A model generated the notes under the pieces. That model was not told the DNA's origin. It did no database searches and saw only the letters and a list, made by a program, of their open reading frames with translations. 64,000 bases of DNA from Glaciozyma antarctica PI12 (taxonomy: Eukaryota; Basidiomycota; Microbotryomycetes; Kriegeriales; Camptobasidiaceae): positions 1,659,562-1,723,561 of the forward strand of contig KZ627161.1 in assembly GCA_002917775.1 (NCBI GenBank), in the 5' to 3' direction. A program made the position numbers and the translations under genes. This document shows positions 13,498 to 63,239 of this stretch, piece after piece. How positions within the stretch are numbered: the stretch's first letter is position 1; every line of letters starts with the position of its first letter.

Positions 13498-13915
13498 ATG
13501 GTTTTGCAACCTGTGCATAGGGAATGGAGTGCGCTTGCGAGATTTCAGAGAAAACGCGCGCTCAGAGATGTAAAGATGGCGTCAGCAAAAGCGCCCGAGC
13601 TGGCTTGCGAAGATGGTGACTTTGGTTCGACGTTCGGGTTCGCATCATTCCTACGCTCTCTACAGTCGATCGTAGGAGGGGAGAAAAGCGATGGACTATG
13701 TAGGTAACGCGTATGCGTCGCTTGGGGTTGAGGAATGGGAAAGAGGCTCGCTTCTCAGGAAAGAGCGAGCAGGAAGGAATCGCAGTGATGGAGACAGAGG
13801 CTGGTATTTTCAAAGGGGTGTGCAAGCATCTAATTCAGATCGAATCAAGTTGCACTGGAGAAGAAGAGAGTTAGAACCGGCGTGCGAAAGGAGCGAAGAC
13901 GCCTGCTCACCTTTT

Positions 13916-15200
13916 TTAGAGCCAGCGAACGACGGAGCGCTTGGTGACGACCTCGGGCTCGGGATCGAAGGGAGCAACAACGGTGGCCTTCTGGAGAGCG
14001 ACCTCAGTCTGGGCGAGGATGCGGCCGAACATGGAAGCCTCGGTCTGGAGGGTGACTCCGGTGGCGGCGAGGACGATACCCTCGAAGTGGGAGCGGTCGC
14101 CGAAGGTGACGGCGTCGGCGACGGCCCAGACGATGTTGGTAGCGTTGGCACCCCTGTGGAATTGTTGTTAGAACTCGGGGAGACGGAGCGACGAAAGAAG
14201 AAAAAACGCACGAGGTGAGGGTCTGTGGAGGGAAGGCGTCGTTAGCGTCTGTTGCAAGAATGGGGCAGCGAGGGACGTACGATCTTGGTGTCGGAAGCCA
14301 TCCTGACGGTACCGGCGACCTGGAGCACCCAGGTGTCCTCGGCGCTGGAGGGCAGGAGCAAAGTTAGAACCCGACTGGCGAGACGGCGAAGCAGAAAGAG
14401 CTCACGTTCCGCTAAAGAAGCAAATCATCAGTGCATGCTCGCAGTAAAGAAGGAGGAGAGGCAACGCACTTGAAGACGAGGTCGGTGGGGAGGATCACGT
14501 TCGAGCTCCACTTGTACAATCCGGGAGCGAGGGTGAGGCCACTGAGATCTCCGTCGTTGAGCTCAATCTCGTCGGGGTTGACGAAGCCGTTAGCCTGGAC
14601 GTCTGTGGAAGGCATAGCGTCAGCGAGTGGCCAAGAAAGCGTCTAGGAAAAGACGCACAGGCGGTCTCCATGTTGGAGACGGCGGCGGTGAGGTAAGCGG
14701 GAGTAGGGTTGCTGGAATGAAAACATTAGCTCGTGTTCTCCGCCTGAGAGCTCCGACTCACCTCATGTCAGCAGCGTAGATGGCGCCGTTGACGTAGGGA
14801 GACTGGGCGACGGCGGTGGAGGATCCTGGAAGAGCAGAGGCATTAGCAAATGGAGGCAGAGGCGCGAACAGAGAGAGTACGTACCGAAGCTGGTGCTAAA
14901 TCCGGTGATGTAGCTGAGGGCGGCAGGCGAAACTCCCTGCGTAGATGGTCAGCGTCGCATGGCGAGGAGGGCGAGGTGAAGGAACTCACAATGTCGCCGG
15001 TGACCGAGCAATCGGGCACGCTGGACACTCCGGCGGCAGCCAGAATGGCAAAGTTTCCGGCAACTCCAAGGTCGACGGTGAGATCACGCTGTGCGTTGGC
15101 CATGGCCTGGGGGAGGGAGTCAGCGAGGGCTTCGCAAGGTCAAGGAGAGAGAACTTACGGCGAGGCCGACGACGAGGAGAGAGACGAGCGAGGAGGACAT
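13916..15200 (-). CDS. DUF3494 ice-binding-type secreted protein, copy 1
   Basis: Secreted beta-helical protein of the DUF3494 (ice-binding protein) family. The start at 15200 (MSSSLVSLLVVGLA) opens a signal peptide that continues across intron 1 to a probable cleavage after ANA. Family motifs in order: LGVAGNFAILAAAGVSS, VTGDIGVSPAALSYITGF, YVQANGFVNPDE, GLTLAPGLYKWSSNV, DTWVLQVAGT, NIVWAVADAVTFG and FGRILAQTEVALQKATVV. The mature protein is about 240 residues, the usual size for fungal ice-binding proteins. The gene is heavily split and includes a 6-nt exon (14406-14411) and an 11-nt exon (14212-14222). The intron found in both paralogs just before GLYKW is absent here. The C-terminus has a KR pair followed by SVVRWL. 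Whether it binds ice cannot be read from sequence; adhesin-like or other roles are possible. Confidence 0.93.
14406..14411 (-). other. 6-nt microexon in DUF3494 copy 1
   Basis: CGGAAC (minus strand) sits between two complete introns, the upstream one ending TTTAG and the downstream one beginning GTGAGC. It completes Asn-Gly-Thr in VFNGTAEDTW. The same microexon with the same flanks is present in copy 3 at 62508-62513, while copy 2 has no separate exon here. Confidence 0.88.
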
Positions 15201-15490
15201 GACTAAGGAGTGGGTTGAAGGAAGTGCGGGTGAGGAGAAGTGGATGAAGAGAAGAGAGAAGCAGACGACCGACGCTGGATTTTATGGAATTGACGGACTG
15301 ATGACGGGTCGCCGCGTCTTCCCTCCTGGCAATCTGAGTTGAACAAGTGCCGATGCAGAGAGGAGAAGCATCAGGTAATACTACGCCCAGCTGGCAGCCA
15401 CGACAGAAAAGGGAGCGAAAGAGAGTTGAACGAAGGCAAAACCGCGGTCCGGTAGTGCGAAATTCGGCCGTCGATCATTCTTATTCGCCA

Positions 15491-16591
15491 CCAAAGGCCA
15501 CGAAGCAGGAGCAATGTGTACTAGCAGGGCCTGCGTCCGCCCAGACAAACAAACGGGCGGGCGTGGAAGGGTCTGGTTCCGCCGAGCAGTGACCCTGGAC
15601 CCGCGCGAGCTTGTAGGCTTTTGTCCAGCGGGAACAGCAGAGTTGGAGGGCGCTGAGTAGTTGCTGAGTCTCGCTGAGTACACCAGAACCGAGCTAAGCT
15701 GTTCTGAGCAGCACCGAGAGCTTCGAGGCGAGTACCTGCTTGCAAATCCTCCTCCGTGCCGTTCACCCAAGGTGGCGAGCGAGTGACGGAGGAAGGAAGA
15801 GGGGCAACGTCCTCGCTCGGGCGCTAGAATCGACAGGAACGACCCCGCTGATAAGTAAGTACTCCCAAGCAGATCCGACTAGGAGTGATGAGGAATCAGG
15901 AAAGAGGGCGGAAGGCGGGAAGTCACTTGGCGCATCTCGGCCAGCGCGCGTGGGTCCCTCTCGGAGGGTATGCGAAGGAGATTGCTCCACGACGCACGTC
16001 GACGGTCGCTGTGGTGGTAGATGAGGCTCACGCTGCCAGTAATTCAGCTGCCTTCCAGTTCGTTGGAGTTTATAAGCCCCCGTTCCTGCCGCCGTTGCTT
16101 TTCGACCGAGGTCCCATCTGGGTATCTCCGGAATGCAAATGACTGCGTGTCCTCCGCGAAATCTGCTGGCTAAAGCCAATGTGGTAGCCTCCAAGAAGGG
16201 TATAAGGATCGCTAGATTGCGAGAGAAAGGGCAGGTTCCAGGTCGGCAGAGACGGAGCGCAGAGAACGGGACGCGCGGGTTTGGGGGAAGAAGCGACGAC
16301 AGAGTACACAAAGCAACGCAGCGAGCTCAGGCACAAGCCAGCGATTAGTCGACTGAAGAACCTGCAGTTGATACCGATGCAGTTTAGTCCGAAGCGAGGT
16401 CAATGGTCGGCAAGGCTTGCGAAGCTCGAAACCAAAATGCCGAAGTCAAGCGCAATCTACCAGATCCTCTCCGGATGTGCAAGTCGACAATAAAAGAGCA
16501 AGCGCGAAGCAGAGAGGAATCGAGCAGACAGATGCGCACAGGGAAAAATCGAGAATGGGAGAGGGGGTTTATTGACAGGGGGAGGCGACGT
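15491..16591. other. intergenic, no gene supported
   Basis: Between the promoter of DUF3494 copy 1 and the stop of copy 2. Several short open frames occur on both strands, but none has an intron pattern, recognisable motif or biased codon use. No RNA gene or repeat was recognised. Confidence 0.5.
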
Positions 16592-17890
16592 TTAAGACCA
16601 CTGACGGGCGTTGGAGCGCTTCTGGACGACCTCGGGGGCGGGGACGAAGGGAGAGTTGACGGTGGCCTTCTGGAGAGCGACCTCAGTCTGAGAGAGGACG
16701 CGACCGTTAAGGGACGAGCCGGTCTGGAGGGTGACGAAGCGCTGGGCGAGGAGGACACCCTCGAAGTGGGCTCCCTTTCCGACACTGCGAAGGGGATAAA
16801 TACTCAAAGACGGCGAGGAACGAGGAAGAGAGACGTACCGGACGTCGTCAGCGACCTGGATCGCGATGTTGGTGGAGTTGGCTCCGCCAGCGAGAGACTG
16901 CGAAAAACGAGTTAGCTGCGAAACGTCAACAGCGGAGAAGTAAACGTACGAAAGCGACACCGTCGGCGAGGCTGAGACCTCCTCCAATCTGGAGAACCCA
17001 GGTGGCGTCGCCGCTGCGAGGAAGTCAAGTCAGCCCATGTCGCACCGCAGAAAGCACGAAGGCAACGCACTTTCCCTCGAAGACGAGGTCAGTAGGAACC
17101 GAGACCGAGGACGACCACTTGTAGAGTCCTGTTTATAACCTCGTTAGCTGCCGCGCAACCAGAACTCGAGCCGAAAGCGAGCAAGCGACGTACCAGGAAC
17201 GAGGGTCTGGTCCCTGAGCTCGCCAGCTCCAAGCTCGACGAAGTCGGGGTCGGTGAATCCGGCGGCCTGGTTGTCTATAGGAAAGGAAGCAAGGTGAGCT
17301 GTGTCGGCGAGGATTGGCTGGGAGACGTACAGGCAGTTCCGGCGTTGGCGACGGCGGCGGCGAGGTAGACCGGAGTACTGTGGTGGGTTCGGTGAGTGAG
17401 AGAACAGAGTTTCCGGAGAAAGATACGTACGGAGTGGAGTAGTCACCGGCGTAGATCAGGCCCGTAACTTGAGGAGAAGTCGCGTACGTGGTGCTAGAGT
17501 CTGTGAGAGACGTTAGCGACCGCTGCTCGGAGAAAACGCGACGTTGAAGCGAGCCTCGCCCGCACTCCCCCCTCCTCCGCCCCCACCCCGCCCAAAAAAG
17601 AGACTGCGTTGTACCTACCCTGGCTGAGACCGAAGCCAGTGATGTCTGCATGGGAGATAGATCAGTTCGTCGTCCTGCGTGCGGTGAACGAAGCTCGACG
17701 TACAGGTGGCGGCGGCAGGCGACACTCCAATATCGCCAAGGACAGCGGAGTCTGGTACACTGCTGATTCCAGCCTGGGCAAGGATCGCAAAGTTGCCCGC
17801 GACTCCGAGCTCGACGGAGAGGTCGCGCTGTCCGTTAACGAGGCCTCCGAGACCGGCGAGTCCGATGGTGATGATCGAGAGAAGGGACAT
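16592..17890 (-). CDS. DUF3494 ice-binding-type secreted protein, copy 2 (divergent)
   Basis: Same family and domain order as copy 1 but clearly divergent. The start at 17890 gives a signal peptide (MSLLSIITIGLAGLGGLVNG) encoded in one exon, then LGVAGNFAILAQAGISSV, LGDIGVSPAAATYITGFG, FTDPDFVELGAGEL, LVPGLYKWSSSV, DATWVLQIGGGLSL, NIAIQVADDVR, FEGVLLAQRFVTLQTGSS and GRVLSQTEVALQKATV, ending PEVVQKRSNARQWS before the stop at 16592. It keeps the introns before GLYKW and after GVAF, lacks the 6-nt microexon, and its signal-peptide exon is not interrupted. A Lys-Arg pair near the C-terminus is shared with copies 1 and 3. It is tandem with copy 1, same strand, 1.4 kb apart. Confidence 0.92.
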
Positions 17891-18179
17891 TTTTGAGGTA
17901 GGTGATAGAGGTTGAGAGGTTGAGAGGTGGGAGAGGTGGTGAAGGAGAGGGAGAGAGGGACGCAGGTCGGGATGGTTTTGCTGAGGGAATTATTCCGCGA
18001 AGGTGCAAGCAGTGACACACCAGCGAGCGAGCGCGCACTAGAACTGTACGATTGGGTTTAAGCTACGCAGGCAACGCGGGAACATGGACGTCGTCGTGGC
18101 CGCGGACACGGCAGCGAGGATGTTGCGAAGGCCCGAAAGTCCGAAAGCGAGCATAAATAAAAGCAGTTAGAGTTTAAAG

Positions 18180-19886: not shown

Positions 19887-20060
19887 CACTTGCCTGCTCG
19901 GTGTTTGTCGAGCTGGGGAGGAGGAAGAGCTTCTGGTGCGTTCGAGCTGTTCCTGCTCTCCTTCCTTCCGCAACCAGCTCCCCTCCAGCTCCCACTTCAC
20001 CACAAGCCAGCACACTCACCAGCACATCCAGCGCCACCGCACTTACCCTCGACAGCAAGC

Positions 20061-29650: not shown

Positions 29651-31469
29651 TCAAACCATAGAGATGAGGCGTCGAATGGCGTCCTCGTTTCCCCCATCAC
29701 CGTGCGTGTCGATGGTGTAGCGCACCTCGGAAACCCTGAACCCGTTGAACTGGAGCGCAAAGAGGACGAATCAGTCTCCGAACAAGGGAGGAGCGGGGAG
29801 CGAAAGAACGCACCTGACTCGCCGCACAGATCGTGTAGGCGCCCATCTTCTCCCACCGGAGCCAGTCTCCCACTCGCAAGGCGTCCGTCGGCAGCGAAGC
29901 GTTGGCCTGTACGCAGTCGATCGAGTCGCACGACGGTCCCCAGAGCGAACACTCGTTCATCGGGGCGTCCGGGAACGTCGGCGAGGGGAGATCGCCTCGA
30001 CCCTGGAAGACGTCCGAGAGCGTCAAGACGTGCGGCTGGACGACTTGGTGGTCGAAGAGGATGCAGTTGAACGCTCCGTACACGCCGTCGTTGACGTAGT
30101 CTGCATGAAGAGAGAAGCGAGTCAGATGGAGTTCGCTGTGCGCAAAGAAGAAAGGAGCGTACACATGACGGTAGGCTTCTCAGAAGTCTCGTCCTCGTCC
30201 ATGGCCGTGTCGAGCATGCCCTGGTCGTCGTTCGTTCCCTCGCGAGCAGCTCGTCGAGCGATGATGTTCGTAGCGAGCTCGAAAGCCCGACTAACGTAGT
30301 ACCTCCCTGGCTCAGCGATGATACGAACGCCCTTGCCCTCGCTGTCGAGCGGGAAGTGCGTGTCGATCGCCTCGCGCAGGACCGCCGTGATCGCCTCAAA
30401 GTTCTCGTCCTCGAAGCCGCCTCCGATGTCGAGCAGGCTGAAGTTGAAGCCTTCCTCCGCTCCAACGTCGAACGCCCAACGCGCGCGCCGCACCGCGTCT
30501 CCGAAGAGCGCAGGGTTCGTGCATCCGCTCCCGCAGTGGAAGCTGATCCCAGCAACCTCGACTCCGAGCTTCTTCGCCGTCTTGAGGAGCGCCCTGACCT
30601 CGCGGAGCGGCGCGCCAAACTTGAGGCCGAGACGGCAAAGGCTTCCCGAATCGTCCGTGAGGATGCGCAGGACCATCTTCGCGCGAGGGTGGTACTTCTT
30701 GACCTTGGCGAGTTCGTCTCTGTTGTCAAACGTCATAAAGTTGACTCCGTTCGCGGCGGCGTGGCGAATGAAGGAAGGGGCCTTGCACGGGTTGGCATAA
30801 ATGATGCGGGACGGGTCGACGGCGATAGGGAGGGAGAGGACGGAGGTGATCTCGGGCTGAGAGGCACAGTCGAACCCTAGGCCCAGGGCGGCGAGAAGGT
30901 GGAGGACGTGAGGGTCGGGGTTGCACTTGACGGCTGAGGAGAGGGGAGGGTTGGTCAGCTCAAAGTTGGTCCAGCGCAGGCGATGCAGCCAACGTACCGA
31001 AGAAGGCCTCCACACGGTAGCCAAGCTCCTTCGTCCACCTCATATGCTGCCTCCAAACCTCGGCAAGATCGCAGACGAAGAACGCGTTCTCGCCATGCGC
31101 CTCGCATTCGTCCATATCGATCTCCTCCAATGCGACCCGGAAGTTCTCGACGATGGAACCAGAGTGCACCGCGGGGAGCGGCGCTGCGGCGGGGACGATG
31201 GGAGTCGGCCGGTTCGCCTTGGTCGGTACGAACCTTTCGACGACCAGGTCGTGAGAAGGGGGCGTGGGAGGGAGGTAGGGCGCGGGGACGGGCTTCAGCT
31301 CAAAGTCGTACTGCTCGATGGAAGCGAAGGACGGGGTCGGCGGGGCGGTGATGGGGAACGCCTGGGAGGGCGAGAGGGGGAGCTGAATAAAAGGCGAACG
31401 GGAGAGCGGCGAACAGCTCAAAAAGGCCTCCTCGACTCGAGAGGCGAACGGGATCGCGATGGCGGCCAT
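29651..31469 (-). CDS. SPE1: ornithine decarboxylase
   Basis: PLP-dependent decarboxylation of ornithine to putrescine, the first step of polyamine synthesis. Four exons: 31469-30998, 30933-30163, 30100-29814, 29749-29651. The PLP lysine is in FFAVKCNPDP, the His and Gly-rich loop in ISFHCGSGC and LDIGGGFED, the phosphate-binding EPGRYYV, and the active-site Cys in WGPSCDSID. All are intact. The N-terminal extension of about 110 residues before SIVENFRVALEE is longer than in metazoan enzymes and is rich in Pro and Ala. The C-terminus is short (DAIRRLISMV), without an obvious metazoan-type PEST tail. Antizyme control is expected from family knowledge but cannot be seen here. Confidence 0.95.
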
Positions 31470-44412: not shown

Positions 44413-47400
44413 TCAAGCCCTACTCCGCCAATCTCCTCCTGCTCCCCCTCCAAATCCGAAGCCTCCGCCTCCGCCTCCGCCTCCTCCAGACGACGATGAC
44501 GGGCGAGAGTTGTAGGGAGTGTCGCGAGGACTGCCGGTGCGCGTCGCTGGGAGGCTGGATGCGAAGGGGCGCAGTGGTCCGGCTTGCGACGAAGGAACAG
44601 GCAGGCGGTTGCCCCCTCCCTCCTCCTCCTCCTCCTCCTCCTCCTCCGCCTCCGCCGTACGCGACAGGAGTCTCTGGCCTCGAACCGACGCGAGACGACT
44701 CTCCTCGGCTCTCAGCGAACCTGCGACAGGGAGCAAAATCAGCGTCAAGTCGACGGACGAAGAAGCGCAGAAAGAGCGCACATGTTGAGAACCTGCGGCG
44801 AGTAGAGGCGTCAGTACGGCCTTGAGAAGAGCAAGAGAAGTGGGTAGCTCACCTTGACGACTCCAGCGGCAAGGTTATCGAGCTCAACGACCTCGCCTGG
44901 TGAGAGCGTGGGGTCGTCCAAGTCCATCGCCTCCTCCTCTCCTTCTCCCTCTCCCTCCTCGTCGTCGTGCTCATCCGGCTTGGGCTGCACAGCGTGCCTC
45001 TCGCGTCCGCGCGAGATGGCGACTCCGAGACCCTCGAAAACGCGCAAGAGCGAGAGATCGAGAACGTCTTTCAGCCTCTCGACGTCGTCCAGCGCCGAAA
45101 CGTTCCCGACGATCGGTAGCCAGTTGTCGCACTCGAGACCGTTCTCCGTGACGCGAAGGTTGAAGGCTCCAAAAAAGCATGTAGCCGAGCGGGTCGAGCC
45201 TGCGCCACGTTCGTCAGTCTCACGGGGGATGAACGATCCAGCTTATGAGCCTACCTCGTGGTTGATCGCAAGAACATCTGCGACTCTCCCTTGCCGATGA
45301 TGCCTCCGCTCTTGCTCTTCTCGCCGTACGCGTAGATCTGTTTCTGCGACGTGACGGGGAGGTCGGCGGCCTTCTCGTTCTTGCGCGAGTTGACGCTGGA
45401 AGGGTGGATCGCGCAGGTCTGCAACGGAGAGAACGAATCTTAGGCAAAGCACGCCGAATCATAGCGGAAGGACGAACCTTGTCCTGAGACGTGCGAAGCG
45501 ACTTCTCGCTTGTCCGAATGGCGAAGTTGGGTGCGACGGCGGCGGCGATGAGAGCTGAGAGGAGCGGAAGACTGTGCCCGTTGACGTTGAGGCTTTCGGG
45601 GATGACAGACGTCCCGCCGCGGCGGAAGGAGACTTGGGTGGAGGCGTTACCTCCCGCACTGATGCGAAGGACGCCGGCCTTGTCGAGGGACTGGAGGATG
45701 TGCTCCTTGATCTTTTGGATCATGAGGAGCGTCGGCTTGCTGAGGAAGTTCTCGCGCGCAAAGTTGTTGGCAGCCTGCGTCATTGGAATCAGAAAAGGGG
45801 GATAGAGAAGCCGAGGAGACTGTACGCACGACGAAATCGTTCCTGCTCTGCATGCCCCACCAGACGTTGAACGCGCTCAGAATGGCAAAGGGGTCGGATC
45901 GGAAGTCGGTAGGTGTCCAAGAGTTCTTGACGCGGTCGGCTTCTTGCTTGAGAAGAGGGGGCGAGAGGAAGGGGTCGCGGTTGGTGAGGATGGCGGCGAG
46001 AGTGAGGGTCTGCTCGAGGCAGCGGAAGAACGATCCGAGGAGGCAGAGCTTTCCGATCGCGGCCTCGACGGGGAGCTGGAGGAGAACGCGTCCGAGCGAA
46101 GTGAGCTTCTCCTCGCGGTCGATGGCTCCGACCATCGTGAGACTCGTCATCGCGGCGTGGACTCGAGCACGCTCGGGCGGCTGAATCGTGGCGGAGAGGA
46201 CGTCCTCGACGGAAAGCTGCGGTGGGTCAACGGTAAGCTAAGCTTTGACGCTGTCTTGAGCGCGAAGGACGTACGCCGGGCAGCTGCAGACCAGTGATAT
46301 GCATGCAGGTGTTGGCGAGGTCGGTCTGATGGACTGATATCAGTCTATGTTAACGAACGAGAAGAGCGGGTGGCGTACCCTGAGCATCTCGACGGTCTGG
46401 TGAATGTCCATCGCAGCGAAACGAGCCGTGGAGACCTGCGAAAGAAGTACGATCAGCGTCGCCCTCCGACTACCCCAGGCCTAGTCAAGCTCACGATTCC
46501 GTAGTACTCTCCAGGACGGTGACGACCAGCTCGGCCAGCGCGCTGGAGCACGTTCGAGGTACCGGTCCATGCCGAGACGAGCTGAGACAGGCGGCGCTCA
46601 GGATCGTAGCGCTTCTCCTTGCACTTGGCCGAATCGACGACGAAGACGACGTCGGGGATCGTAACCGAGGTTTCGGCGATGTTGGTCGAAAGGACGATGC
46701 GACGGATTCCTTCGGGTGGGGGCTCGAAGACGGCTTGCTGTTCGGCGATGGGGATGGTCGAGTGGAGAAGGTGGATTTCGTACTGGCGGTCGGTGAAGTT
46801 GACGTCGAGAAGAGGGTAGCGGTTCCGGTCGATGAGGATGTTGCGAACGGCTTGAATCTCGTCCCATCCGGGAAGGAAGACGAGGACGTGGCCCTCGTCC
46901 GACTTGCTGATGACCCAGGCGATGATGAGGGCGATGAGAGGGTAGGGCATGTCGAGGTCGTCGATTTCGCCGATAGGTCTGCCGGTGCGCTGGTCGATAT
47001 CGATGTTGGGGACGAGTTCGCGGCGGTTGTAGGCGTCGACCGACTTTTCGCTCCAGACCCAGCCTCCTTGCGCCGGAGGGAGTCGAAGAGCCTGCAGCTC
47101 ACGAACCGTGTCGTCCAAGAAGTGCTTGTCGACCGGGAAGCTGCGACCTGGAGGCAAGGAGTCAGATCTAGCGAAGAGGCAGGTCGAACGCACTCACCTG
47201 GCACTTCAACTACCGGCGCAAGACGACCAGTGTCGGGATCGGCAAAGTAGTTCGTGAAGAGGATAGGGTCGATAGTGGCGGACCTGAGCAGGGAATTGGG
47301 TCAGTCTCTTCGCCTAAAAGGACTGGCGAACAACGCACATGAGGACGACGCGAATCTCGGCCTTGCCAGCCTTCCTTCGCTCGTGAAGGAGTCGCCGAAG

Positions 47401-49686
47401 AACGAAAAGCAAGAGATCGGTGTCGACGTCCCGCTCGTGCACCTCGTCGACGGCGACGTGAGTCACGCCATCGAGGAAGCCTTCGTTTCCGTTGTTGGCG
47501 AGATCGCTCTGGAGACGACGAAGGAAGAGTCCCGTCGTGCAGAAAAGGATCGAGCCATCGGGCTTGGGAGGCTTGCTCTCGAAGCGAACCTGGTAACCGA
47601 CCGAGTCACCGATGCTCTCGCCACGCTCCTTGGCGACGCGCTCGGCGACGCTGATGGCGGCGATACGGCGGGGCTGAGTGCAGACGATGTTGCACTTGCC
47701 TCCGTCTCCTCGCATGATCCAGTCATCGAGGATGAGCTGGGGGACTTGGGTCGTCTTTCCGGATCCGGTGGCGGCGAGGACGACGACGACGGACGAGGTG
47801 GCGATTTTGGCGAGGACGGAAGAGGCGTGGGAGGCGACGGGAAGGGAAGCGCGTTGAGTGCGCATGCGCTCGACGCGAGGGTCGGTCTGGTAGTTTTGGA
47901 GTCGAGCGAGGAGTTCGGCGCTCTTGAGGGCGACGATGGGGGCGCGAAGCTCCTGGCGGCGCGAGGGTCCGGCGCCGGCTCTCGAGCCGTTGTAAAGTCC
48001 TTCGTCCTCCTTGACGCCGGCGTTCCTCCTGAGGAGCTCCCTCGCCTTCTCGGCCTTCTGCCGTTCGCGCTCGACCATCGCCTTCGCGCGCTTGTAGAGG
48101 TGGCTCTCGCGGCTCTCCCACACCGTCTCGCGCAGCTCCTCGTCCGTCCGAGGGTCGACATCGAAGACGACGTGCGCCGTCATCGTGCCCTTGACGATCA
48201 TGTTGGACTGCTTCTTGGCGGACCACTGACCCCAGAGCTCAGAGTCGCAGCTCTCGAGGTACTGGGCCGTGTCGAGGTAGGCGCGGTTGTGGGCGTCCTT
48301 CTTGTTCCTCGCTTCGCCCATACCGATCCGGCGACCGTTGACGAGAAGCGTGGCGCACCAGGAGCCGTTGCTCTTGCCGCGACCGTGGTGGGGGACGGCG
48401 GACGAGTACTGGAGGTCGGGCTTGCCGAAGTTGAAGCGAGTGCCTATAGAGTCACAACAGCATCAGCTCCCATTCACCCGCTGCGTACCAGAAGAAAGGC
48501 AGAACGTACAGTAGTAGTCCATGAAGGCTCGCGCCTCCTCCAGACCGATACGCTGTCCTCCCGAAAGTCCGACCGTCTTGCCGTCGTTCCCAGCGGGGTT
48601 TCCAGCACCGGTAGAAGCATAAACGGCGAACTGGTTGCCTCCTCCTCCGCCACCTCCTCCTCCTCCTCCTCCTCCTCCGCCAGACGACGCCGCGTGCAAA
48701 GGCGTGCGCATGCCCTTGGTACGCGTAGGCAGGTTCGATTCGGTGAAGAGTCCACGAGCGCCGAGTTGAAGACAGGCGTGAAGAGCGGCGAGCTTCTCGG
48801 CGTCCTTGAGAGAGCCAGCATCACCGGTACCGATGATGGGTTGGGAAAGAGGAGGGAGAGAGGGGGCGCCGGGGTTGGGAATAGGGGGAGGGGAAGGGTC
48901 TGCGACGATGGTGGCCCTGGAGGAAGATGAGAACACGGTCAGTAGCTGTATCAATCTGCCATGGGGTGGAAGACGAGTGGGAGCTGCATGAAGGGAGCTG
49001 CAAGACTCAAGTCGGCGACCCAGACCAAGCCACAGCTGGCGCCCAGCTCGAATCCCTGATGCTTCTTCCGCGCTGACGTTCCACCAAAAGCCCTCGCGTG
49101 CAGTAAGAAACTCGTACGCACCTGAAGCCGTCAAAGGTGCCTACGCGCGCTCGTCCGCCCTTGTACTTTGCTTGCTCGCCCAAGGCTCCGACGTAGTTGG
49201 CCAGGACACCTGCAGAAGACCAGCACGGTTAGCTTTCATCCATCAGAGTAGCTCCAGGCCAGCTGAAGAAGAAGGGACACGGTCGTGCCTTTTGGGTTTT
49301 CGATCCACTTCCTGATGCACGAGGAGGGGGTCAGCTCGAGAAAAGAGAGAGAGAGCTGGAGGGAGAACACACCTGTTGGGCTCGCCGCGACCTCCCAGGG
49401 CGCGATAGGACGAGTTGATGTAGGCTAGGTCATGGAGGGGAGGAGGAGCGAGGGGAGCGGGAGCTTGAGGTGCTGCTGTCCTGGGTCGCTTGCTTTGATT
49501 CGAGTTGGAGCCGCGCGCTGAGCCTCTTGTGCGGCCAAAGGAAGGCGGCATAGGGAGAGGGTGAGGTTGCTGATACGAGTTGTTGGGACGAGAGGCGTAG
49601 GCGTCGGCAGCTGCCGAGAGGGAAGAGGACGGTTGGGCAGAGGACGATTGTCTAAGGGGAGAAGGAGAGTGCGGCCGCTTCCTCAT
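44413..49686 (-). CDS. DEAH-box RNA helicase, RHA/DHX9-like with dsRNA-binding domain
   Basis: Start at 49686 (MRKRPHSPSPLRQ), a basic disordered N-terminus, a region WIENPKGVLANYVGALGEQAKY, then a double-stranded RNA-binding-type domain (EARAFMDYYCTRFNFG to KKDAHNRAYLDTAQYL) after a poly-Gly run of about 15. The helicase core is complete: motif I ATGSGKTTQ, motif II DEVHERD, SATIDP, STNIAETSVTIPD and motif VI QRAGRAGR, then the HA2 and OB-type C-terminal domains (SLGRVLLQLPVEAAIGKLCLLG; GYMLFGAFNLRV). The tail is Gly-rich and ends near 44413. A frame change in the tail is resolved if the C5 run at 44612-44616 is one base shorter; an alternative acceptor would give a Glu-rich reading instead. 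One intron (49210-49288) appears to be GC-AG. Probable role in RNA remodelling or translation; substrate unknown. Confidence 0.9.
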
Positions 49687-51263: not shown

Positions 51264-54200
51264 ATGGCGGCAGCAGACCGACCAATCTCCTTTGCGGAGC
51301 TCGCCCAGGTACGTTGGAGTTCCGCCCCTCCGTTCTATCTCGCCCAGCCCCGTGTTCGAACCGTCTCGTCATGTACCCATCTCAGGCCTCCCCTCGATGG
51401 TTGTCCTTCTGCGCCTGCTCGCCTGGCTCTTAGGCAATCAGAGGAATTGTAATCAACAACTGACGACTCTTCTGGCAGCTCACCGCGCTCGGGGTTCAGC
51501 CAGCCTCTATCGGCTTCGCGACCCTCACTCTCGAGTCGGACCGCTTCATCTGTGTCCGCGAGGACGTCAACGGCACCAAGACGGTCGTCATCGTAGACCT
51601 CCACGACTCGAACAATGTCACGCGAAGGCCCATCTCCGCCGAGTCCGCCATCATGCACGTCGAGGAGAAGGTCATCGCTCTACGAGGTGAGTACTTGCTC
51701 CGCTCCTCTGAGACATCCAGTGCAGTCAGCGCACGCACGCGCCCGCATTCTGCGAGAGCTGAGCCGGTGACTGAACGCGTTCCACGCTTTTGCGAGCGTG
51801 CTGTCGCGCGACCAGCCAGCACCAAATTGTCATCCCTTCGAGCCTTGTGCTGACCCCGCCTTCGTCCACAGCCGAACGCCAACTCCAAATCTTCAACATC
51901 GAGCTCAAGCAGAAGGTCAAGTCCCACACGATGCACGAGGACGTCGTCTTCTGGAAGTGGATCACGCCCACGACCCTCGGTATCGTCACCAACACGGCCG
52001 TCTACCACTGGGTCGCCTACGCGCCTGCCTCCGCCCCTTCCACCCCTACCGCCGATGCTCCCGTCAAGGTCTTTGACCGTCACGCCTCGCTAGCCGGCAA
52101 CCAGATCATCAACTATCGCGTCACGCCCGACGACAAGTGGCTCGTCCTCATCGGCATCAGCAGCAACACGACCAACCCCGCCGGCTTCAAGGTCAAGGGA
52201 GCGATGCAGCTCTACTCGCGCGAGCGAGGCGTCAGTCAGCCGATCGAGGGACACGCCGCAAGCTTTGCTCAGCTCAGGCTCGACGGCGCGAGCGCCGACA
52301 CGAAGCTGTTCGCCTTTGCCGTCCGCACCGCGCAGGGCGCCAAGGTACGTCGCAGTTCGTCCCATGCTGAGGCCTCAAGCTTACGCTGGTTCCTTGCTCC
52401 CAGCTCCACATCGTCGAGATCGACCACCAGGCGGGTCTCCCCGTCTACGCCAAGAAGGCTGTCGACGTCTTCTTCCCTCCCGAGGCGACCAACGACTTCC
52501 CCGTCGCGATGCAGGTCTCCCAGCGCTACGGTATCGTCTACCTCGTCACCAAGTACGGCTTCATCCACCTCTACGACCTCGAGACCGGCACCTGCATCTA
52601 CATGAACCGGATCAGTGGCGAGACGATGTTCGTGACCTGCGAGCACGAGGCGACGAGCGGTATCATTGGAGTCAACCGCAAGGGCCAGGTCCTCTCCGTC
52701 ACCGTCGACGACGATACCATCATTCCCTACATCCTTCGTACTCTCAACAACACCGACCTCGCCATCCGTCTCGCCTCCCGTGCGAACCTCCCTGGAGCGG
52801 ATGACCTCTACACTCGCCAGTTCGCCCAGCTGTTTTCGACCGCTCAGTACTCCGAGGCCGCCAAAGTCGCCGCCAACTCGCCTCGCGGCATCCTTCGCAC
52901 CCCTCAGACAATCGACCAGTTCAAGGGTGTTCCCGTCCCGGCCGGCCAGCTCAGCCCGATCCTACAGTACTTTGGGATCTTGCTCGAACGCGGAAAGCTC
53001 AACAAGTATGAGAGTCTCGAGCTCGCTCGTCCCGTCCTCGTCCAAGGACGCAAGGAGCTGCTCGAGAAGTGGCTCAAGGAGGACAAGGTGCGCTGTAAAC
53101 CCCTGTGCGCAACTGTGGAGCTGACCCTTTCGCAACCTACTTTTGCAGATTGAATGCAGCGAGGAGCTCGGAGACATCGTTCGTTCGCACGACATGACGC
53201 TCGCTCTCTCCGTCTACCTGCGCGCCAACGTCCCCAACAAGGTCGTGTACGTTCTTGCTCCCATACCGCGTCTACGAGCAGCTAGCTTACAACTTCCTTC
53301 TTTCGGACTGCAGCGCTTGCTTCGCTGAGACCGGCCAGTTCGCCAAGATCATCGTCTACGCCAAGCGAGTCAACTACTCGCCCGACTACGCTTCGCTCCT
53401 CCAGCACATCACTCGCATCAACGCCGACCAAGGTGCCGAATTCGCTGGCCTCCTGATCAACGACGAGAGCGGACCTCTCGTCGACGTCGAGCGCGTGCGT
53501 TATTCGGCTCTCACAATCGCTTCTCCAGCTAACGCGGCTTCAATCGCAGGTCGTCGACGTCTTCATGTCGCAGAACATGATCCAGCAGGCCACGTCATTC
53601 CTTCTCGACGCGCTCAAGGAGAACCGTCCCGAGCAGGGCGCTCTCCAGACTCGTCTTCTCGAGATGAACCTCGTGAACGCGCCTCAAGTCGCCGACGCGA
53701 TCCTCGGCAACGAGATGTTCTCGCATTACGACCGTCCTCGCATCGCCAACCTGTGCGAGAAGGCCGGACTCCTCCAGCGCGTGCGTTTCCATCCAGCTGC
53801 GTCTGTTTGAGGTCGTGCTAACGTCCCTCCCTTTGCGATCAAGGCTCTCGAGCACTACGAGGATATTGCCGATATCAAGCGCGTCGTTGTCCACACCAAC
53901 TTGCTCGCAGCCGATGTAGGTAGCTTCGCACTCTACAAAACGAAGCGCGTCTGACCGACCATCCCTTCGCAGTGGCTCGTCAACTACTTTGGCACGCTCA
54001 CGGTCGAGCAGACCCTCGAGTGCTTCAACGAGATGCTCCGCGTCAACATCCGCCAGAACCTTCAAGTCGTCGTGCAGTCGGCGACCAAGTACTCGGATCT
54101 CATCGGCCCTGTCCGACTCATCGAGATGTTCGAGTCGTTCAAGACGTTCGAAGGTGAGCCGTCTCCCCGCTCTTCCGCTCGAATTTTCTGACCCAAATGC

Positions 54201-57200
54201 GCTAGGTCTCTACTACTACCTCGGCTCCGTCGTCAACCTCAGCGAGGACTCGGAAGTCCACTTCAAGTACATCCAGGCGGCGACGAGGACCGGTCAGATT
54301 CGCGAGGTCGAGCGCATCGTCCGCGAGAGCAACTTCTACAACCCCGAGAAGGTCAAGAACTTCCTCAAGGAAGCCAAGCTCGCCGACCAGCTCCCCCTCA
54401 TCATCGTCTGCGATCGCTTCGACTACGTCCACGACCTCGTCCTCTACCTGTACCAGAACGGGCTCACCAACTTCATCGAGGTCTACGTCCAGCGCGTCAA
54501 CTCGGCGAGGACGCCTCAGGTCATCGGAGGGCTTCTCGACGTCGACTGCGACGAGACGACGATCAAGGCGCTGCTCGCTTCCGTCACGGGGCCGGTCCCT
54601 GTCGACGAGCTCGTCGACGAGGTCGAGAAGCGGAACCGGCTCAAGCTCATCTTGCCGTGGCTCGAGGCCAAGATCCAGCTCGGACAGCAAGAGCCCGCCA
54701 TTTACAATGCTCTCGCCAAGATCTATATCGACAGCAACAACAACCCCGAGGCATTCCTCAAGGAGAACAACGTGCGTCCCTGGCCCACTCTCATGGCTTT
54801 CTTTGCTGACGACGTTCTCGATCGGGCAGCTCTACGACCCTCTCGTCGTCGGAAAGTACTGCGAGAAGCGCGACCCCTACCTCGCCTACATCGCCTACGC
54901 CAAAGGATTCTGCGACGACGAGCTCGTCACCATTACGAACGACAACTCGATGTTCAAGCACCAGGCGAGGTACCTCGTCAAGAGGCGTCGTCTCGAACTG
55001 TGGGCTCAGGTCCTCAGCTCCGAAAACGTTCACAAGCGTCAGCTCGTCGATCAGGTTCGTCCCTGCTCTTTGGCAGCTTTCGATCCGCTCTGACTGATCT
55101 GCACTGCATAGGTCGTCGCCACCGCTGTGCCCGAGTCGACCGACCCTGAGGACGTCTCCGTCACCGTCAAGGCTTTCCTCTCCGCCGACCTCCCCACCGA
55201 GCTTATCGAGCTGCTCGAGAAGATCGTCCTCGAGCCGTCCGCGTTCAGCGACAACAGCAACCTCAAGAAGCTCCTCCTCCTCACCGCCATCCGAGCCGAC
55301 AAGGGCAAGGTGATGGGCTACATCGAAAAGGTCGAAGGATTCGACGTCAACGAGATCGCGAGCATTGCGACCGAGCACGGGCTGTACGAGGAGGCCTTCA
55401 CTCTCTTCCGCAAGCACAACCAGCACCTCGACGCGATGAACGTTCTCGTCGAGTATATCGTCAGCATCGACCGCGCGTCTCAATACGCGACCAAGGTGGA
55501 CGAGCCCGCCGTCTGGAGCCGCCTCGCCAAGGCGCAGCTCGACGGCCTGCGGATCAAGGACGCGATCGACTCGTACATCAAGGCGGACGACCCGACCAAC
55601 TTCCTCGAGGTCATCGAGACGTCGTCGCGCGCGGCCAAGCACGAGGACCTCGTCCGCTACCTTCAGATGGCTCGCAAGACGCTGCGCGAACCCGCTATCG
55701 ACACGGAGCTCGCTTTCGCCTACGCCCGCACCGATCGCCTGCACGACATGGAGGAGTTCCTCGCCATGACGAACGTCGCCGATCAGCTTTCCGCCGGAGA
55801 GAAGGCTTTCGACGCCGGCCTCTACGACGCAGCTCGTCTCCTCTTCTCGAGCATCTCCAACTGGGCTCGCTTGGCCACGACGCTCATCTACCTCGGGGAG
55901 AACCAGGCCGCGGTGGACGCCGCTCGCAAAGCCGGCAACACTCAGTGCGTCCCAAGTCTCTTTCGCTGTCGCGCCGCGCAACGATCACTGACCTCGCGCG
56001 ACTGCCAGGGTCTGGAGGCAGGTCAACGCCGCCTGTATCGACAAGAAGGAGTTCCGCCTCGCTCAGATCTGCGGTCTGAACCTCATCGTGCATGCCGAGG
56101 AGCTCACGGTACGTCAAAGCTGTTTCGCGAAGTAGCGACCCCGCTAACGTTTGCGTTACGTCCGCGCAGGCTCTCGTACGACTCTACGAGACGCAGGGCT
56201 ACACCGACGAGATGATCTCTCTGCTCGAAGCTGGCCTGGGGTTGGAGCGCGCGCACATGGGCATGTTTACCGAGCTATCGGTTCTCTACGCCAAGGTACG
56301 CCACCTCCGTGACGCCGTTTCGACGTCTTCTAATCAAGCGACGTTGCTTCTCAGTACCGACCCGAGCGTCTCATGGAGCACCTCAAGCTCTTCTGGTCTC
56401 GGATCAGTAGGCCGTTTTCAATCTTGAGTCGCGACTCCCCACTCACCTCACCTACCTGCGCAGACATTCCCAAGGTCATCCGCGCGACCGAGCAGGCTCA
56501 CCTTTGGTCCGAGCTCGTCTTCCTGTACGTTCACTACGACGAATTCGACAACGCCGCGCTTGCAATGATGGAGCGCTCGGCGGACGCATGGGAGCACAAC
56601 CAGTTCAAGGAGATTGTCGTCAAGGTGGCGAACATCGAGATCTATTACAAGGTATCGTTTGCTTCCTTTCAAAAGGAACCGCCGCGCTGACGTTACGTTC
56701 TCCAGGCCCTCACGTACTACCTTCAGGAGCAACCCATGCTTCTCAACGATCTTCTCGTCGTCCTCGCTCCTCGAGTCGATCACACGCGCGTCGTCAAGAT
56801 GTTCCAAAAGGTCGACGAGCTTCCCAGTAAGTCGCAGTGGGCTCGGACGCGAGTGCTCGCCAACTGACGCCTTCCTTCTCCAGTGATCAAGTCCTACCTC
56901 ATCGCCGTTCAGCACGTAAGTCGGGCTGTCGTCCTCAGACTTTTTGCCGTTCTGACTCCAGACGGCGCTGCAGAACAACATCCCGGCCGTCAACGAGAGC
57001 TACAACGAGTTGCTCATCGAGGACGAGGACTACAAGACGCTGCGAGATTCGACCGACTCTCAGGATGCGTTTGACGCGCTGGGGCTTGCGGCGCGGCTGG
57101 AGAAGCACGACCTCTTGGAGTTCCGTCGACGTGAGTCTCGCTCCGCTGCCAATTTTGCGAGGCGCTGATTCTATCCTTCTCAGTCGCCGCTCATCTTTAC

Positions 57201-57885: not shown

Positions 57886-58041
57886 ACTGCAACTTCGGAC
57901 TGTTTTTCGTAAGCTTTGGGAGGTTGTCAAGGACCAGGCCGACAGCGCGAGAGCGCACGCGCACGGCACCGCCAGCGCGAGCGAGAGAAGTGGCTCAGTC
58001 TCTCGTTTAAGGAGCGTACAACTCAGGCGCTGGTGATTCCA

Positions 58042-60716
58042 TCACTTCTTCTTCACGTCCTTGACCGCCACCACGATACGCTCCCCGCCCTCGAAATTCA
58101 GACCTCCCAACGTTCCCGAGTTGGCGAGAATCCTCCCGTTGAAGCTCAACTTCTGCTTGCTGATAGGAATTCCGACCTTGGCCTGCCAAAAGGAGGTCAG
58201 CTTGACGCGAAAGTGAAGAGAATGGCGGGCGACGCACAGCAATCCGATCTCGCAGCGTTCCGACGAGAAGCGTGAGAGGAATGTCGTCGAGTTGAACCTC
58301 GCTGCCATCGCATCCCCAAGCGGGCTTGGCAGGGTAGTCGGGCAGCTGGACAAAGACCGAAATAGGATCCTGGTGCGGAAGCAGGAGTCAGCGTTGGTGC
58401 TCGGTGCAGAAAACGGCGCGAATCGACGTACCGGATGCGATACGAGCCACTCTTCCTCCGGCCGGAACGAACCGTCTGTTCGCTTCGGGACTCGGTGCCG
58501 CTTCGCATTCGGCTCTCCCTCCGGTCCCCCGTCTGCAGACCTGCCGGCTCCAGCGGGAGCGGTTGGCTGAGCGATGCTCGCATACTGCCCTGGTGCGAGG
58601 GGTAGAGCTTCGCCGGGGTTCGTAACCAGGGGGCGAGCGGGCAGTCCTGCGATCGGTAGCCCGTACGGCTGCTGAGGAGGTTGGCTCGAGGAGGCGTAGG
58701 ACTGGTACTGAGGCTGAGAGTAGGCGCTGCTCGACTGATGAGGTTGTGGGGCGCCGGAGATGGTGGCGCCGGAGATGAAGCCAGAGGGTTCGGAGGGGGC
58801 CGACGACGCGTTGGGAACGGAGGGGCCAATCTTGGGGGTCTCGTCAGCGCTGCAAGGGTATCAAATAAGTCATGGGCGGCGCATAGAACGTAGGAGAGAG
58901 GGACGAACCCGAGCAAGCCCTTGGCGCGGTGAAGTGCCTCGATCTGCTCGTCGAGACTTGCGCCTGCAAAGCGACTCGTAATGGCGTCCTTGGTCGCGGT
59001 GTGACCGTCCCAGACGACCTTCTCGCGAGCTTTCGACTGAGCCGTGGCGGTCGCCTCCGCCTGGCGCCTTGCGTCGTCGTCTGTGCCGGTCCCGAAGATG
59101 TCTGGCCGATGAGCAGCAAGACCGCGGATAGATGCGGATACGTCGGTTCCTGCAAAAGAGTTGGATTCAGTGAGAAGTCCAGCGAGGAAAGACGAGCGAG
59201 CCACGCACCTCCAGGAAGTAGGTTGGACGCCGAACGGTTGGCCTCGCTGATGCGCTTCTCCTCCTTCCAGCGAGGATCCAGAAGCTCGATACGGACGTGG
59301 TTGGCAAAGTCCTCGACGGGAACTTGCTGGTCGCCAAACGTGGTCATCGCAGGTCCTGCCGCCGCCACCGGTCGTCTCGCTGTAAGGTAGATGTTAGCGA
59401 AACACACGCAACGTAGAGCCTTGCGATCCCACCTTTCGGAACGTAGTCTTTGCGAATCTTCATCGGAGCGTTTGCGTCGGCGGTCCTGATCTCGACGACT
59501 CGTCGTCGCTCCTTTTCCAGCTTGGCCTCCTCGGCTCCCTCGGTCTCAAGCTCTTCGTCGTCCTCGACCTCCATCTCCATCTCCGCCTCCTCGCTGCGCT
59601 CCCGCTCCCGCTCGTTCTCGGCGACTTCTTCCTCTCGTCCCTCCATAATCATCGCCGCCATCTTCTTCTGAGCAATCGTCATGTTCTCCACCTCGCTGAT
59701 GCTCATGGGCGGCGGGAGCTCGACCAGGCCCGCCTCGTCGCCTTCGGTAAACTCGACGGTCGAGACGACGACAAAGTCTTGCCAGTCGATTTCGGCAAAG
59801 GCGATACGGTCGGCCTCCTCCGCGTCCTCGAGCTCCTTGCGGCGGGTCGATTCCCATTTCTCCCACTCGACTCGCGACTTGACATCCTTGAGAACTTCGC
59901 GTCGTCCCATCGTCCTACGGTCCTCCCGGTCGCGATCTGCTCATCTGGCTGCGGCGCTTGAGTCGTGCCTGAGCTTCCTTTGAGGGAATGAGGATCTTGG
60001 TGTACTGCTCAGTGAGGCTGCGAGATAGGAGCCTGGTCAGCTGTACGTCACCAACTCCTGAGGCAAAAGAACGCACCGGTTGAAGTATCCAAAGAGAGAG
60101 TGGGAGGGGCGCAGGAAGTCGAACTGGTAGTTACGGTTCTCGCGAGAGGCTAGCTCGGAGGTGAAGCGTCGCCCAGAGCGCGCTGTGAAGAGGGCGGTCA
60201 GGCGAAGGATGTCGCTGGAAGTGTGTCAAGTCTGTCAGCATCATGTGGTAGGTTTAGCGCAGGAGACGGCACGCACAGGTCGACGGCGTTCATCGCGGGA
60301 GGTTGCTCGACGAGGTACTCGAGGGCGGCAGGCTCTGGAGGACGTCCATCGTTGTCGTCCACATCATCTCCTCCTTCTGCAACTGCCGCCTTGCTCGCAT
60401 CCGCCTTGACCTCGGCCACCTCCCCTCCTCTGAACGCCTCGAGACGGTGGAGGTAGTAGGCGTGGTAGGCGTCCTCCTTGTTCAAGAAGGCGAAGCGCGA
60501 GTCGCTCTTCTCGCGCGCTCTGATCTTCTCCTCGAACAGCTCTGGCTTAGGCGACTTGGCGACGAAGGAGGCAGTCTTGTCGACGATCGTTCGGATCTCT
60601 GGAGGGGGAAGGATGAGGCCATCGGGTTTGGCGGCGGTGGAGGCGGCGGGGGCTGGAGAGAGGGCGCTGCTGTCGACTCCTCCGTTCGCTGGTGGAGGAA
60701 GGCTGAGGGACGCCAT
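58042..60716 (-). CDS. PRP21: splicing factor 3A subunit 1 (SF3A1/PRP21)
   Basis: Core component of the U2 snRNP needed for prespliceosome assembly. The start at 60716 (MASLSLPPPANGG) is followed by SURP module 1 (IRTIVDKTASFVAKSPKPELFEEKI) and SURP 2 (LDILRLTALFTARSGRRFTSELASRE then NYQFDFLRPSHSLFGYFNRLTEQYTKIL), a coiled acidic region (VKSRVEWEKWESTRRKELE, many Glu), GDQQVPVEDFANHVRIELLDPRWKEEK, a Pro/Ser/Gln-rich linker, and a C-terminal ubiquitin-like domain (LVGTLRDRIGLAVGIPISKQKLSFNG) ending VKDVKKK. One frame break lies between 59915 and 59945; reading the C3 run at 59925-59927 one base shorter joins KEAQARLKRR to EDRRTMGRREVLKDV. About eight introns. Confidence 0.93.
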
Positions 60717-61374
60717 CAAGTAGTCGGGCGGGCGAGACTGACGTGCGGAGTCAACTCGCCTCGCCTGTGAGTGTGGTGGCTCCTCAGAAATCGATTAAAT
60801 TCAAAATAAAGATAACCTCCCTAGCACGATGCTCCTCCTTCCTTGGATTTCCTCCTCCTCCACCGCATAGGTGAGTTGGTCAAGCCTTCGCGACGACTGA
60901 GCAGGACGGACGCGGTTTGAGAAGTTCGCGACTGCAGCGCCAAGGCCGACCTCCGCCTTCGCCCTTGTCAGCGCGCGATGTCAGCTCTCTCTCTCAATCC
61001 GCAGGAGCAGTTCCCGTCCATTCTAGCGCAAAGAGAAGAGGTCGCTCCTCTTCCTCTCGACTCTGACTGTCATCCAACGATCTGCGCTCGCTCGCCATCT
61101 TCCTCGCCACGGGCGCTGCTGACCCTGTTTGCAAGCACGTCCTCGCGAAGCTGCATAGCCCTGCTCGGAGGGGAAGTGGGTTCATCTTGGCGGATCGAAC
61201 CGAACGCTGCTCCCATGTTACCTCGTTTCCCGCCTGCGGCGCTGGACGTTCAGTGGGAATAGCATCTTGCAGCTCGCTACTCATCTTCTCTCTGCCTCCC
61301 GCTCATCTCCGGACTGATCCTACATACTGATCCGACTCGGAGAGCGTGAGCCAGTGAGCAGGTGGCGGTAGCGA
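60717..61374. other. intergenic, two overlapping unsupported open frames
   Basis: Between the SF3A1 start and the promoter of DUF3494 copy 3. A plus-strand ATG at 60978 opens 94 codons and a minus-strand ATG at 61284 opens 96 codons over the same DNA. Neither shows a known motif or clear splice signals, so neither is called. A short AT-rich patch lies at 60790-60815. Confidence 0.4.
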
Positions 61375-61571
61375 GCAAGAAGGATCGACGACCGCGTTTC
61401 GCACCACCGGACCGCCCTGTAACTCTGTTTTCTCCTGCCTCTTCCTGTCGTGGCTGCCAGCTGGGCGCAGGATTACCTGATACTTCTCCTCCACTCTCGG
61501 TTCCGGCACTTGTTCAACTCAGATTGTAAGGAGGAAGACGCGGCGTGCGTCACCCATGAGTCCGTCAGTTC

Positions 61572-61579
61572 TATAAAAA
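61572..61579 (+). promoter_or_regulatory. TATA-like box of DUF3494 copy 3
   Basis: TATAAAAA lies 81 bp before the start codon, in a block conserved with copy 1, where the equivalent sequence is CATAAAAT at about the same distance. It is followed by the conserved CTGCGTCGGTCGTCTGCTTC and a CT-rich leader. Confidence 0.6.
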
Positions 61580-61659
61580 CCTGCGTCGGTCGTCTGCTTC
61601 TCTCTCCTCTTCATCCACTTCACTCCTCACCCGCACTTCCTTCAACTTACTCCTTAGCC

Positions 61660-62940
61660 ATGTCCTCCTCGCTCGTCTCTCTCCTCGTCGTTGGCCTCGC
61701 CGTCAGTTCTATCTCCTTGATCTTGTGAAGCCCTCGCTGATCGTCTTATCCCTCCTCCCAGGCCTTCGCCAACGCTGCGCCGCGTGACCTCACTGTCGAC
61801 CTTGGCGTTGCCGAGAACTTTGCTGTCCTGGCTTCCGCTGGCATCTCGAGTGTGCGCGATTGCAAGATTTCGGGTGACATTGTGAGTTGCTTTGCCTCGC
61901 CCTCCTTGCTGCGCGTTGCTGACCATTTGCACAGGGAGTTTCCCCTGCCGCCCTCAGCTACATCACCGGATTCAGCACCAGCTTCGGTACGCACTCTCCA
62001 TATCCGTGTCCTAGCTCAATTCGCTGACGGCTCTGCTCTTTCAGGATCCTCCACCGCCGCCGCCCAGTCGCCCTACGTCAAGGGTGCCGTCTACGCCGCT
62101 GACATGAGGTGAGTCGCGAATCTTTGGCCATCGAACGCGAACTAACGTTGCGATTTCAGCAACCCCACTCCCGCCTACCTCACCGCCGCCGTCTCCAACA
62201 TGGAGACCGCCTGTGCGTCCTCTCCTCTGCGCGGCTTGTGTTCGTCTCTGACGCTTTGCTATCTACAGACGTCCAGGCTGCTCGCTTTGTCAACCCCGAC
62301 GAGACTGAGCTCAACGACGGAGACCTCAGCGGACTCACCCTCGCTCCTGGTAAGTGTCTGTCCTATGTCACTGTCTCGCAAGCTAACGATCTTTCCAGGA
62401 CTCTACAAGTGGGGAACGTCGGTCTACATGCCTACTGATCTCGTCTTCAAGTGCGTTCTCTCTCCTCGCGTTCCATGAGCAAAACTGACTCCCTGCTTCT
62501 TTTTTAGCGGAACGTGAGCGCCTGCTCCAACTCGTCTTTCACATCCAGCTGCTGACGTTCCCCGCTGCTCTTCAGCGCCGAGGACACCTGGGTGCTCCAG
62601 GTCGCCGGTACTCTCAGGATGGCTGCTGATGTTCGCATCGTGCTCACCTCGTGCGTGTCTCCTTCACTTCCTCCCGTAGCGTCGCTCACAAGTACCTCAC
62701 AGCGGAGCCAAGGCCACCAACATCGTCTGGCAGGTTGCCGATGCCGTCACCTTCGGCGCTCGCTCCCACTTCGAGGGTATCGTTCTCGCCGCCACCGGAG
62801 TCACCCTTCAGACTGAGGCTTCCATGTTCGGCCGCATCCTCGCCCAGACCGAGGTCGCTCTCCAGAAGGCCACCGTTGTTGCTCCCTTCGTTCCCGAGCC
62901 CGAGGTTGTCACCAAGCGCTCCGTCGTTCGCTGGCTTTGA
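61660..62940 (+). CDS. DUF3494 ice-binding-type secreted protein, copy 3
   Basis: Closest relative of copy 1. Start at 61660 (MSSSLVSLLVVGLA) with the signal peptide split by intron 1, then AFANAAPRDLTVDLGVAENFAVLASAG, SGDIGVSPAALSYITGF, NPDETELNDGDLSGLTLAPG, LYKWGTSVYMPTDLVFNGT, DTWVLQVAGTLRMAADV, NIVWQVADAVTFG, EASMFGRILAQTEVALQ and the tail EVVTKRSVVRWL. It has the intron before LYKW that copy 1 lacks, but lacks the intron after the RMA..V/I position that copy 1 keeps. The 6-nt microexon is at 62508-62513. A complete intron (62945-63000) follows directly after the stop in the 3' UTR, as in copy 1. Confidence 0.93.
62508..62513 (+). other. 6-nt microexon in DUF3494 copy 3
   Basis: CGGAAC between an acceptor TTTTTTAG and a donor GTGAGC. 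It is needed to keep frame and to encode the Asn-Gly-Thr of VFNGTAEDTW. Identical to the microexon at 14406-14411 in copy 1. Confidence 0.88.
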
Positions 62941-63239
62941 AAGGGTGAGCAGGCGTCTTTGCTCCTTTCGCACGCCGGTTCTAACTTTCTCCTTCTGCAG
63001 TGCAACTTGATTCGATCTTAATTAGATGCTCACACACCCCTTTGAAAATACCAGCCTCCGTCTCCACGACTGCGCTTCCCTCCCGCTCCCTGATTCTGCG
63101 GAGCGAAGCCTCCTCCCGTTCCTGAATCCCGAGACCTGAGAGAAGCGCGGCCTCGTTCTTGTTTCTCCCGATGCTCTCCCTGCGCTCCTACAGAAGCGTG
63201 AGGGCAGGATTGCTGCGAGAACGAGTGTCTCGCGGGAGT

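Follow-up and report, generated by a model that had tools for sequence, protein, structure and literature searches.

Three DUF3494 ice-binding protein genes in a 64-kb stretch of the Glaciozyma antarctica PI12 genome and the apparent order of their duplication

We analyzed a stretch of 64,000 nucleotides from the Antarctic yeast Glaciozyma antarctica PI12 (contig C16, 1659562-1723561; GC content about 60%), which is referred to here as the window. Three of its genes, A, B, and C, almost certainly encode secreted DUF3494 ice-binding (antifreeze) proteins that have already been published as GaAFP3, GaAFP4, and GaAFP5. These genes and their activity are in print in the 2018 genome paper (PMC5791967), and our identification is mostly a rediscovery. 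What we add to the field is the order of duplication of this scaffold-16 trio, corrections to its description as 'non-paralogous' and 'adjacently located', and a small idea about splicing. The gene models are as follows.

16592..17890, minus strand: gene A, DUF3494/Ice_binding protein, 261 aa, 9 exons
13916..15200, minus strand: gene B, DUF3494/Ice_binding protein, 259 aa, 10 exons
61660..62940, plus strand: gene C, DUF3494/Ice_binding protein, 260 aa, 10 exons

After hand-splicing at GT-AG introns (49-62 nt in B and C), all three genes are open from ATG to stop. An earlier note, made from the raw sequence, had placed the genes at these ends, and the start and stop codons of A, B, and C sit exactly there; that reading located true antifreeze genes with exact boundaries despite up to nine short introns. 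The model of gene C was also compared with the output of a spliced protein-to-DNA aligner that we wrote, with the A protein as the query and gene C as the target. The exon joints obtained were those of the hand model, including a 6-nt exon that A lacks, and the ends were trimmed, as the alignment is local.

The proteins matched the PF11999 profile (Ice_binding, formerly DUF3494) over its full length and far above the cut-off of 28.7 bits, with one domain each: 201.6 bits for A (E = 1.5e-59, model positions 1-208 of 208), 210.6 bits for B (E = 2.7e-62, 1-207), and 214.8 bits for C (E = 1.4e-63, 1-207). The family membership claimed in the earlier note is thus borne out for all three. Gene B gave an additional match to DUF7305, which lies below the cut-off (21 bits vs 27). 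The hydrophobic N-terminal leaders, judged by eye, end at VNG/Q in A, ANA/Q in B, and ANAA/P in C, and in the alignments the first residue of the LeIBP chain falls at Gln21 in A and at Gln20 in B. Signal peptides are reported as predicted for every GaAFP (PMC5791967). The best match in the PDB was LeIBP (3UYU/3UYV) for A, B, and C, with E-values of 1.4e-141, 2.1e-87, and 1.9e-85, respectively. By homology, the three proteins would adopt the irregular triangular beta-helix of the family, with its flat b-face, which is described as the ice-binding face of DUF3494 proteins (PMC7277481, PMC7966756, PMC5334608).

According to the genome paper, nine of nine recombinant GaAFPs, including GaAFP3-5, shape ice into hexagons and inhibit recrystallization, and the effect is abolished by proteinase K (PMC5791967). 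The highest thermal hysteresis given there is 0.079 °C for GaAFP4, and the lowest is 0.034 °C for GaAFP5. Expression is generally increased in the cold, with profiles that vary by gene in time and temperature; GaAFP3 has the top expression at −12 °C, and GaAFP1 and GaAFP5 give smaller grains (PMC5791967). For Afp4, a hysteresis of 0.8 °C is stated in PMC5334608 and 0.08 °C in PMC11884722, and we take the 0.8 °C figure for a slip. Ice binding, which the earlier note had offered as inference, is supported by the PF11999 scores, the 93% identity of A to the crystallized LeIBP, and the published activity of the nine recombinant proteins (PMC5791967). Its guess of a Microbotryomycete source also fits, as the class includes Glaciozyma (PMC11884722). 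We suggest that, outside the cell, the proteins would adsorb to ice through the flat b-face. The adsorbed proteins would then block the merging of small ice grains and shape the ice, an ecological role that we infer.

The genome paper assigns GaAFP3 (GAN_16_650), GaAFP4 (GAN_16_651), and GaAFP5 (GAN_16_667) to scaffold 16, and GaAFP1, 7, and 8 to scaffold 5 (PMC5791967). In our literature search, it was the only paper found to name GaAFP3 or GaAFP5 or the loci GAN_16_650, 651, or 667. For Afp4 and LeIBP, an identity or similarity of 93% has been reported (PMC11884722, PMC5334608), the same figure that we obtained for A. Thus, gene A matches GaAFP4/Afp4 (GAN_16_651), the LeIBP orthologue, by identity and by gene order. 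From the gene order, we infer that B is GaAFP3 (GAN_16_650), by elimination, and that C, by its position, is GaAFP5 (GAN_16_667).

Several observations weigh against this identification or against the activity attached to it. The GaAFPs are said to be numbered by molecular weight (PMC5791967); with weights of 26,566 for A and 26,746 for B, this rule would swap GaAFP3 and GaAFP4. Since the weight order conflicts with the LeIBP identity and the gene order, the naming of A and B is less sure than the rest. Furthermore, a ninth published AFP gene was not found with the family model or with three protein queries, which gave eight loci vs nine. Recombinant Afp3, 4, 5, 7, and 9 were refolded from inclusion bodies (PMC11884722), so the measured activities may be understated. 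Finally, a structure model was built for exon 10 of B alone, together with 17 other rows. It shows strands in repeated coils, with a mean predicted local distance difference test score (pLDDT) of 74.2 and a predicted template modeling score (pTM) of 0.52. The top Foldseek matches were LeIBP (template modeling score to the query 0.64, root mean square deviation 12.3, E = 0.054) and TisAFP7 (0.62, deviation 1.6), and none of the 48 matches had E ≤ 0.001. The model therefore supports the fold weakly, and it is the sequence homology that carries the claim.

The duplication history of the trio differs from what the gene positions suggest. B and C share 88% identity over the domain, while A is 60-62% identical to B and C (A/B 62%). 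B and C are inverted with respect to each other and lie 46 kb apart, with C about 44 kb from A. The earlier note had called A and B tandem copies; this is correct by position but not by sequence, as the sister of B is the distant, inverted C. Furthermore, B and C have about 1.8 kb in common, including about 290 bp upstream and about 190 bp downstream of the coding part.

13721..13915, minus strand: 3' flank of gene B, common with C
62941..63133, plus strand: 3' flank of gene C, common with B
15201..15492, minus strand: 5' flank of gene B, common with C; an ATAAAA box lies about 80 bp upstream of the ATG
61367..61659, plus strand: 5' flank of gene C, common with B

A tree was built from 46 rows, 9 fungal and 37 prokaryotic. 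The prokaryote rows (36 bacteria and one archaeon, Ferroplasma) were taken from 70 stop-free rows from 80 loci and picked for likeness to gene A; one gene from contig C5 (C5_3) was left out because of an in-frame stop. A is the sister of LeIBP (100/99), B and C form a pair of their own (100/100), and these four group together (100/95). From this topology, the split between A and B/C appears to be older than the split between the two Glaciozyma lineages. The lineage of A would have diverged first from the one leading to B and C, when G. antarctica and the LeIBP yeast had not yet parted. An inverted duplication of about 1.8 kb, which took along both the 5' and 3' flanks, would later have produced B and C. 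This order of duplications is based on a well-supported tree. The introns at mature residues 52, 91, and 137 are alike in place and phase in A, B, and C; that at residue 118 is common to A and C, and that at 159 is common to A and B. The genome paper refers to 'nine non-paralogous AFP genes' and describes genes as 'adjacently located' (PMC5791967). The identities, the tree, and the common introns argue for plain paralogy, contrary to the first of these descriptions, and the second does not fit gene C, given its distance from A.

B and C have an intron at residue 135 that lies six bases before the common intron at residue 137, leaving an exon of only 6 nt.

14406..14411, minus strand: 6-nt exon of gene B, CGGAAC, which completes an Asn-Gly-Thr sequon at mature residue 135
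62508..62513, plus strand: 6-nt exon of gene C, CGGAAC, in the corresponding place to that of gene B

The simplest reading is that this intron was gained in the B/C lineage. The pattern AG-N6-GT occurs 587 times over the two strands of the window, or roughly once in every 218 bases of each strand, so finding one such site within 125 nt is not in itself unusual. We accept the exon because it gives a gapless protein length and is identical in both copies, although the two flanking introns are just 56-59% alike. With the exon in, the protein contains the Asn-Gly-Thr sequon; if it were skipped, the sequence would read Asn-Ala-Glu, with the frame kept. It is conceivable, but in our judgment highly improbable, that the exon is a switch that yields glycosylated and unglycosylated antifreeze from one gene, perhaps by temperature-dependent splicing. 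A literature search on micro-exons, basidiomycetes, and antifreeze gave nothing on a 6-nt exon among the matches listed.

Two other features of the gene structures were observed. Gene B has an 11-nt exon at 14212-14222, and C keeps the corresponding bases inside a longer exon, as it does not have the residue-159 intron of A and B. An intron-like GTGAGC...CTAAC...CAG is conserved 4-5 bases past the stop codons of both B (13910-13855) and C (62945-63000).

The face positions have been published for the TisAFPs (PMC7966756), and B aligns with TisAFP8 without gaps over residues 5-221, so that these positions could be read off directly. Ser and Thr together account for 11 of the 50 face positions in A, 11 in B, 12 in C, 12 in LeIBP, and 13 in TisAFP8. 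A and B differ at 18 of the 50 positions. B and C differ at 8/50 positions on the face and at 19/167 elsewhere, so the face is not enriched for changes (Fisher p = 0.46); all four pairs that were tested gave this outcome (p = 0.33 to 0.74). The nonsynonymous (dN) and synonymous (dS) divergences were calculated by NG86. For B and C, dN is 0.084 and dS is 0.372, giving dN/dS of about 0.23, a gene-wide average that cannot exclude selection at single sites. For A and B, dN is 0.352 and dS is 0.715, and dN/dS is higher, at about 0.49, but still <1. The earlier note had suggested selection for dosage or diversification. The low B/C ratio and the unenriched face do not support this suggestion, and the B/C divergence is compatible with paralogues being retained under ordinary purifying selection.

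Other explanations for the retention of the copies must be weighed against purifying selection. One is that the genes form a subfunctionalized set, with A as a general antifreeze and B and C specialized for other ice planes or times of cold. The differences between A and B on the face point in this direction, as do the published expression of GaAFP3 at −12 °C, the extremes of hysteresis of GaAFP4 and GaAFP5, and the smaller grains with GaAFP1 and GaAFP5. However, neither the face comparisons nor the dN/dS ratios of B/C and A/B favor it, and the published activity differences are small and come from refolded protein (PMC11884722). We therefore regard subfunctionalization as a tentative possibility.

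The flanks bear on two further explanations. Where they adjoin the coding part, the B and C flanks are alike at 71/76 and 123/134 positions, compared with 214/334 for six internal introns (3' side, Fisher p = 1.5e-10; 5' side, 6.7e-8), and the first two introns are intermediate (43/52 and 41/53). These common flanks and the 88% identity over the domain would be expected if B and C were redundant copies kept for more protein, but the GaAFP expression profiles differ in time and temperature (PMC5791967), and we consider dosage unlikely. The likeness of the ends might also be kept by recent gene conversion, and dS is indeed lower in exon 10 (0.235) than in the first 159 mature codons (0.418). At fourfold sites, however, exon 10 is changed at 10/52 and the middle at 12/67 (p = 1.0). 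Conversion of exon 10 is thus unsupported at these sites, and constraint on the regulatory ends explains the likeness as well. Recent conversion seems quite unlikely to us, while for the ends themselves either constraint on regulation or conversion would be a sufficient explanation.

The rest of the family was sought by a PF11999 profile search of the genome (18 contigs, 19,983,266 bp), in which locus counts are lower bounds. Matching stretches were found at at least eight loci on four contigs: three on C5, three on C16, one on C12, and one on C17, with no stretch on C16 beyond the three genes among the matches listed. The protein queries recovered those eight loci, or seven in the case of one query, which missed gene A; one query added a weak stretch on C14 (E = 0.25). 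A, B, and C are far from the family members on C5, C12, and C17 and resemble prokaryote proteins more closely. Their best nine listed blastp rows include prokaryote proteins at 51-54% and no C5, C12, or C17 gene. Horizontal transfer of microbial ice-binding genes has been proposed (PMC7277481, PMC7966756, PMC5334608), and in the free tree neither C12 nor the C5/C17 genes group with the window genes; C12 and C17 have long branches. Multiple horizontal origins of the Glaciozyma family were considered and set aside, as none of four one-clade approximately unbiased (AU) tests excluded a single clade at 0.05: p = 0.053 for the window genes with TisAFP8 and C12, 0.29 with C5/C17 instead, 0.11 for all fungal rows, and 0.45 for C12 with C5/C17. 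Given these tests, the long branches, and the choice of prokaryote rows by likeness to gene A, we make no claim of separate origins. A scan of viral contigs with a C5 protein gave no relative. At the C5 locus (L009, C5:567000-576900), two of the three automatically spliced models contain an in-frame TGA, which may reflect mis-splicing, an assembly error, or true truncation.

Of the 20 open reading frames scanned in the window, 7 had a Pfam match; the neighbors with such a match, listed below, look like housekeeping genes.

51790-56212, plus strand: clathrin repeats in three open reading frames, likely a heavy chain (Pfam)
30125-31024, minus strand: ornithine/arginine-decarboxylase-type enzyme (Pfam)
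5661-6446, minus strand: PAT1 (Pfam)
60201-60719, minus strand: Surp module protein (Pfam)
47317-48321, minus strand: DEAD-box match, barely over the cut-off (Pfam)

The window contains no Rfam match at the gathering score and no tRNA detected by ARAGORN (bacterial code). Beside gene C, at 63277-64000, there is a 176-bp tandem array with a higher-order repeat of 352. Similar units recur on C16 about 4.2 kb beyond the end of the window and on C17, C4, and C5. Those on C16, C4, and C5 are in direct pairs 3.9-4.8 kb apart, like the ends of mobile elements, and the sequence separating the C16 arrays is given as N.

Among known systems, the closest are the GaAFP3, GaAFP4, and GaAFP5 of G. antarctica PI12 (UniProt I1E4B7 for Afp4), which, compared by their published descriptions, agree with the window genes in scaffold number, gene order, and Afp4-LeIBP identity; the sole difference found is the order by molecular weight. 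LeIBP from the Arctic Glaciozyma sp. AY30 (3UYU, 3UYV) is 93% identical to A, gapless over 240 residues, with 44 of the 50 face positions alike. By contrast, B and C have about 61% identity to LeIBP and form a separate paralogue pair. The domain register of TisAFP6, 7, and 8 from Typhula ishikariensis (3VN3, 7DC5, 5B5H) is as in the window proteins. TisAFP8, on a long branch, joins the window genes at 99/94, and it is described as hyperactive, whereas LeIBP is moderate (PMC7966756).

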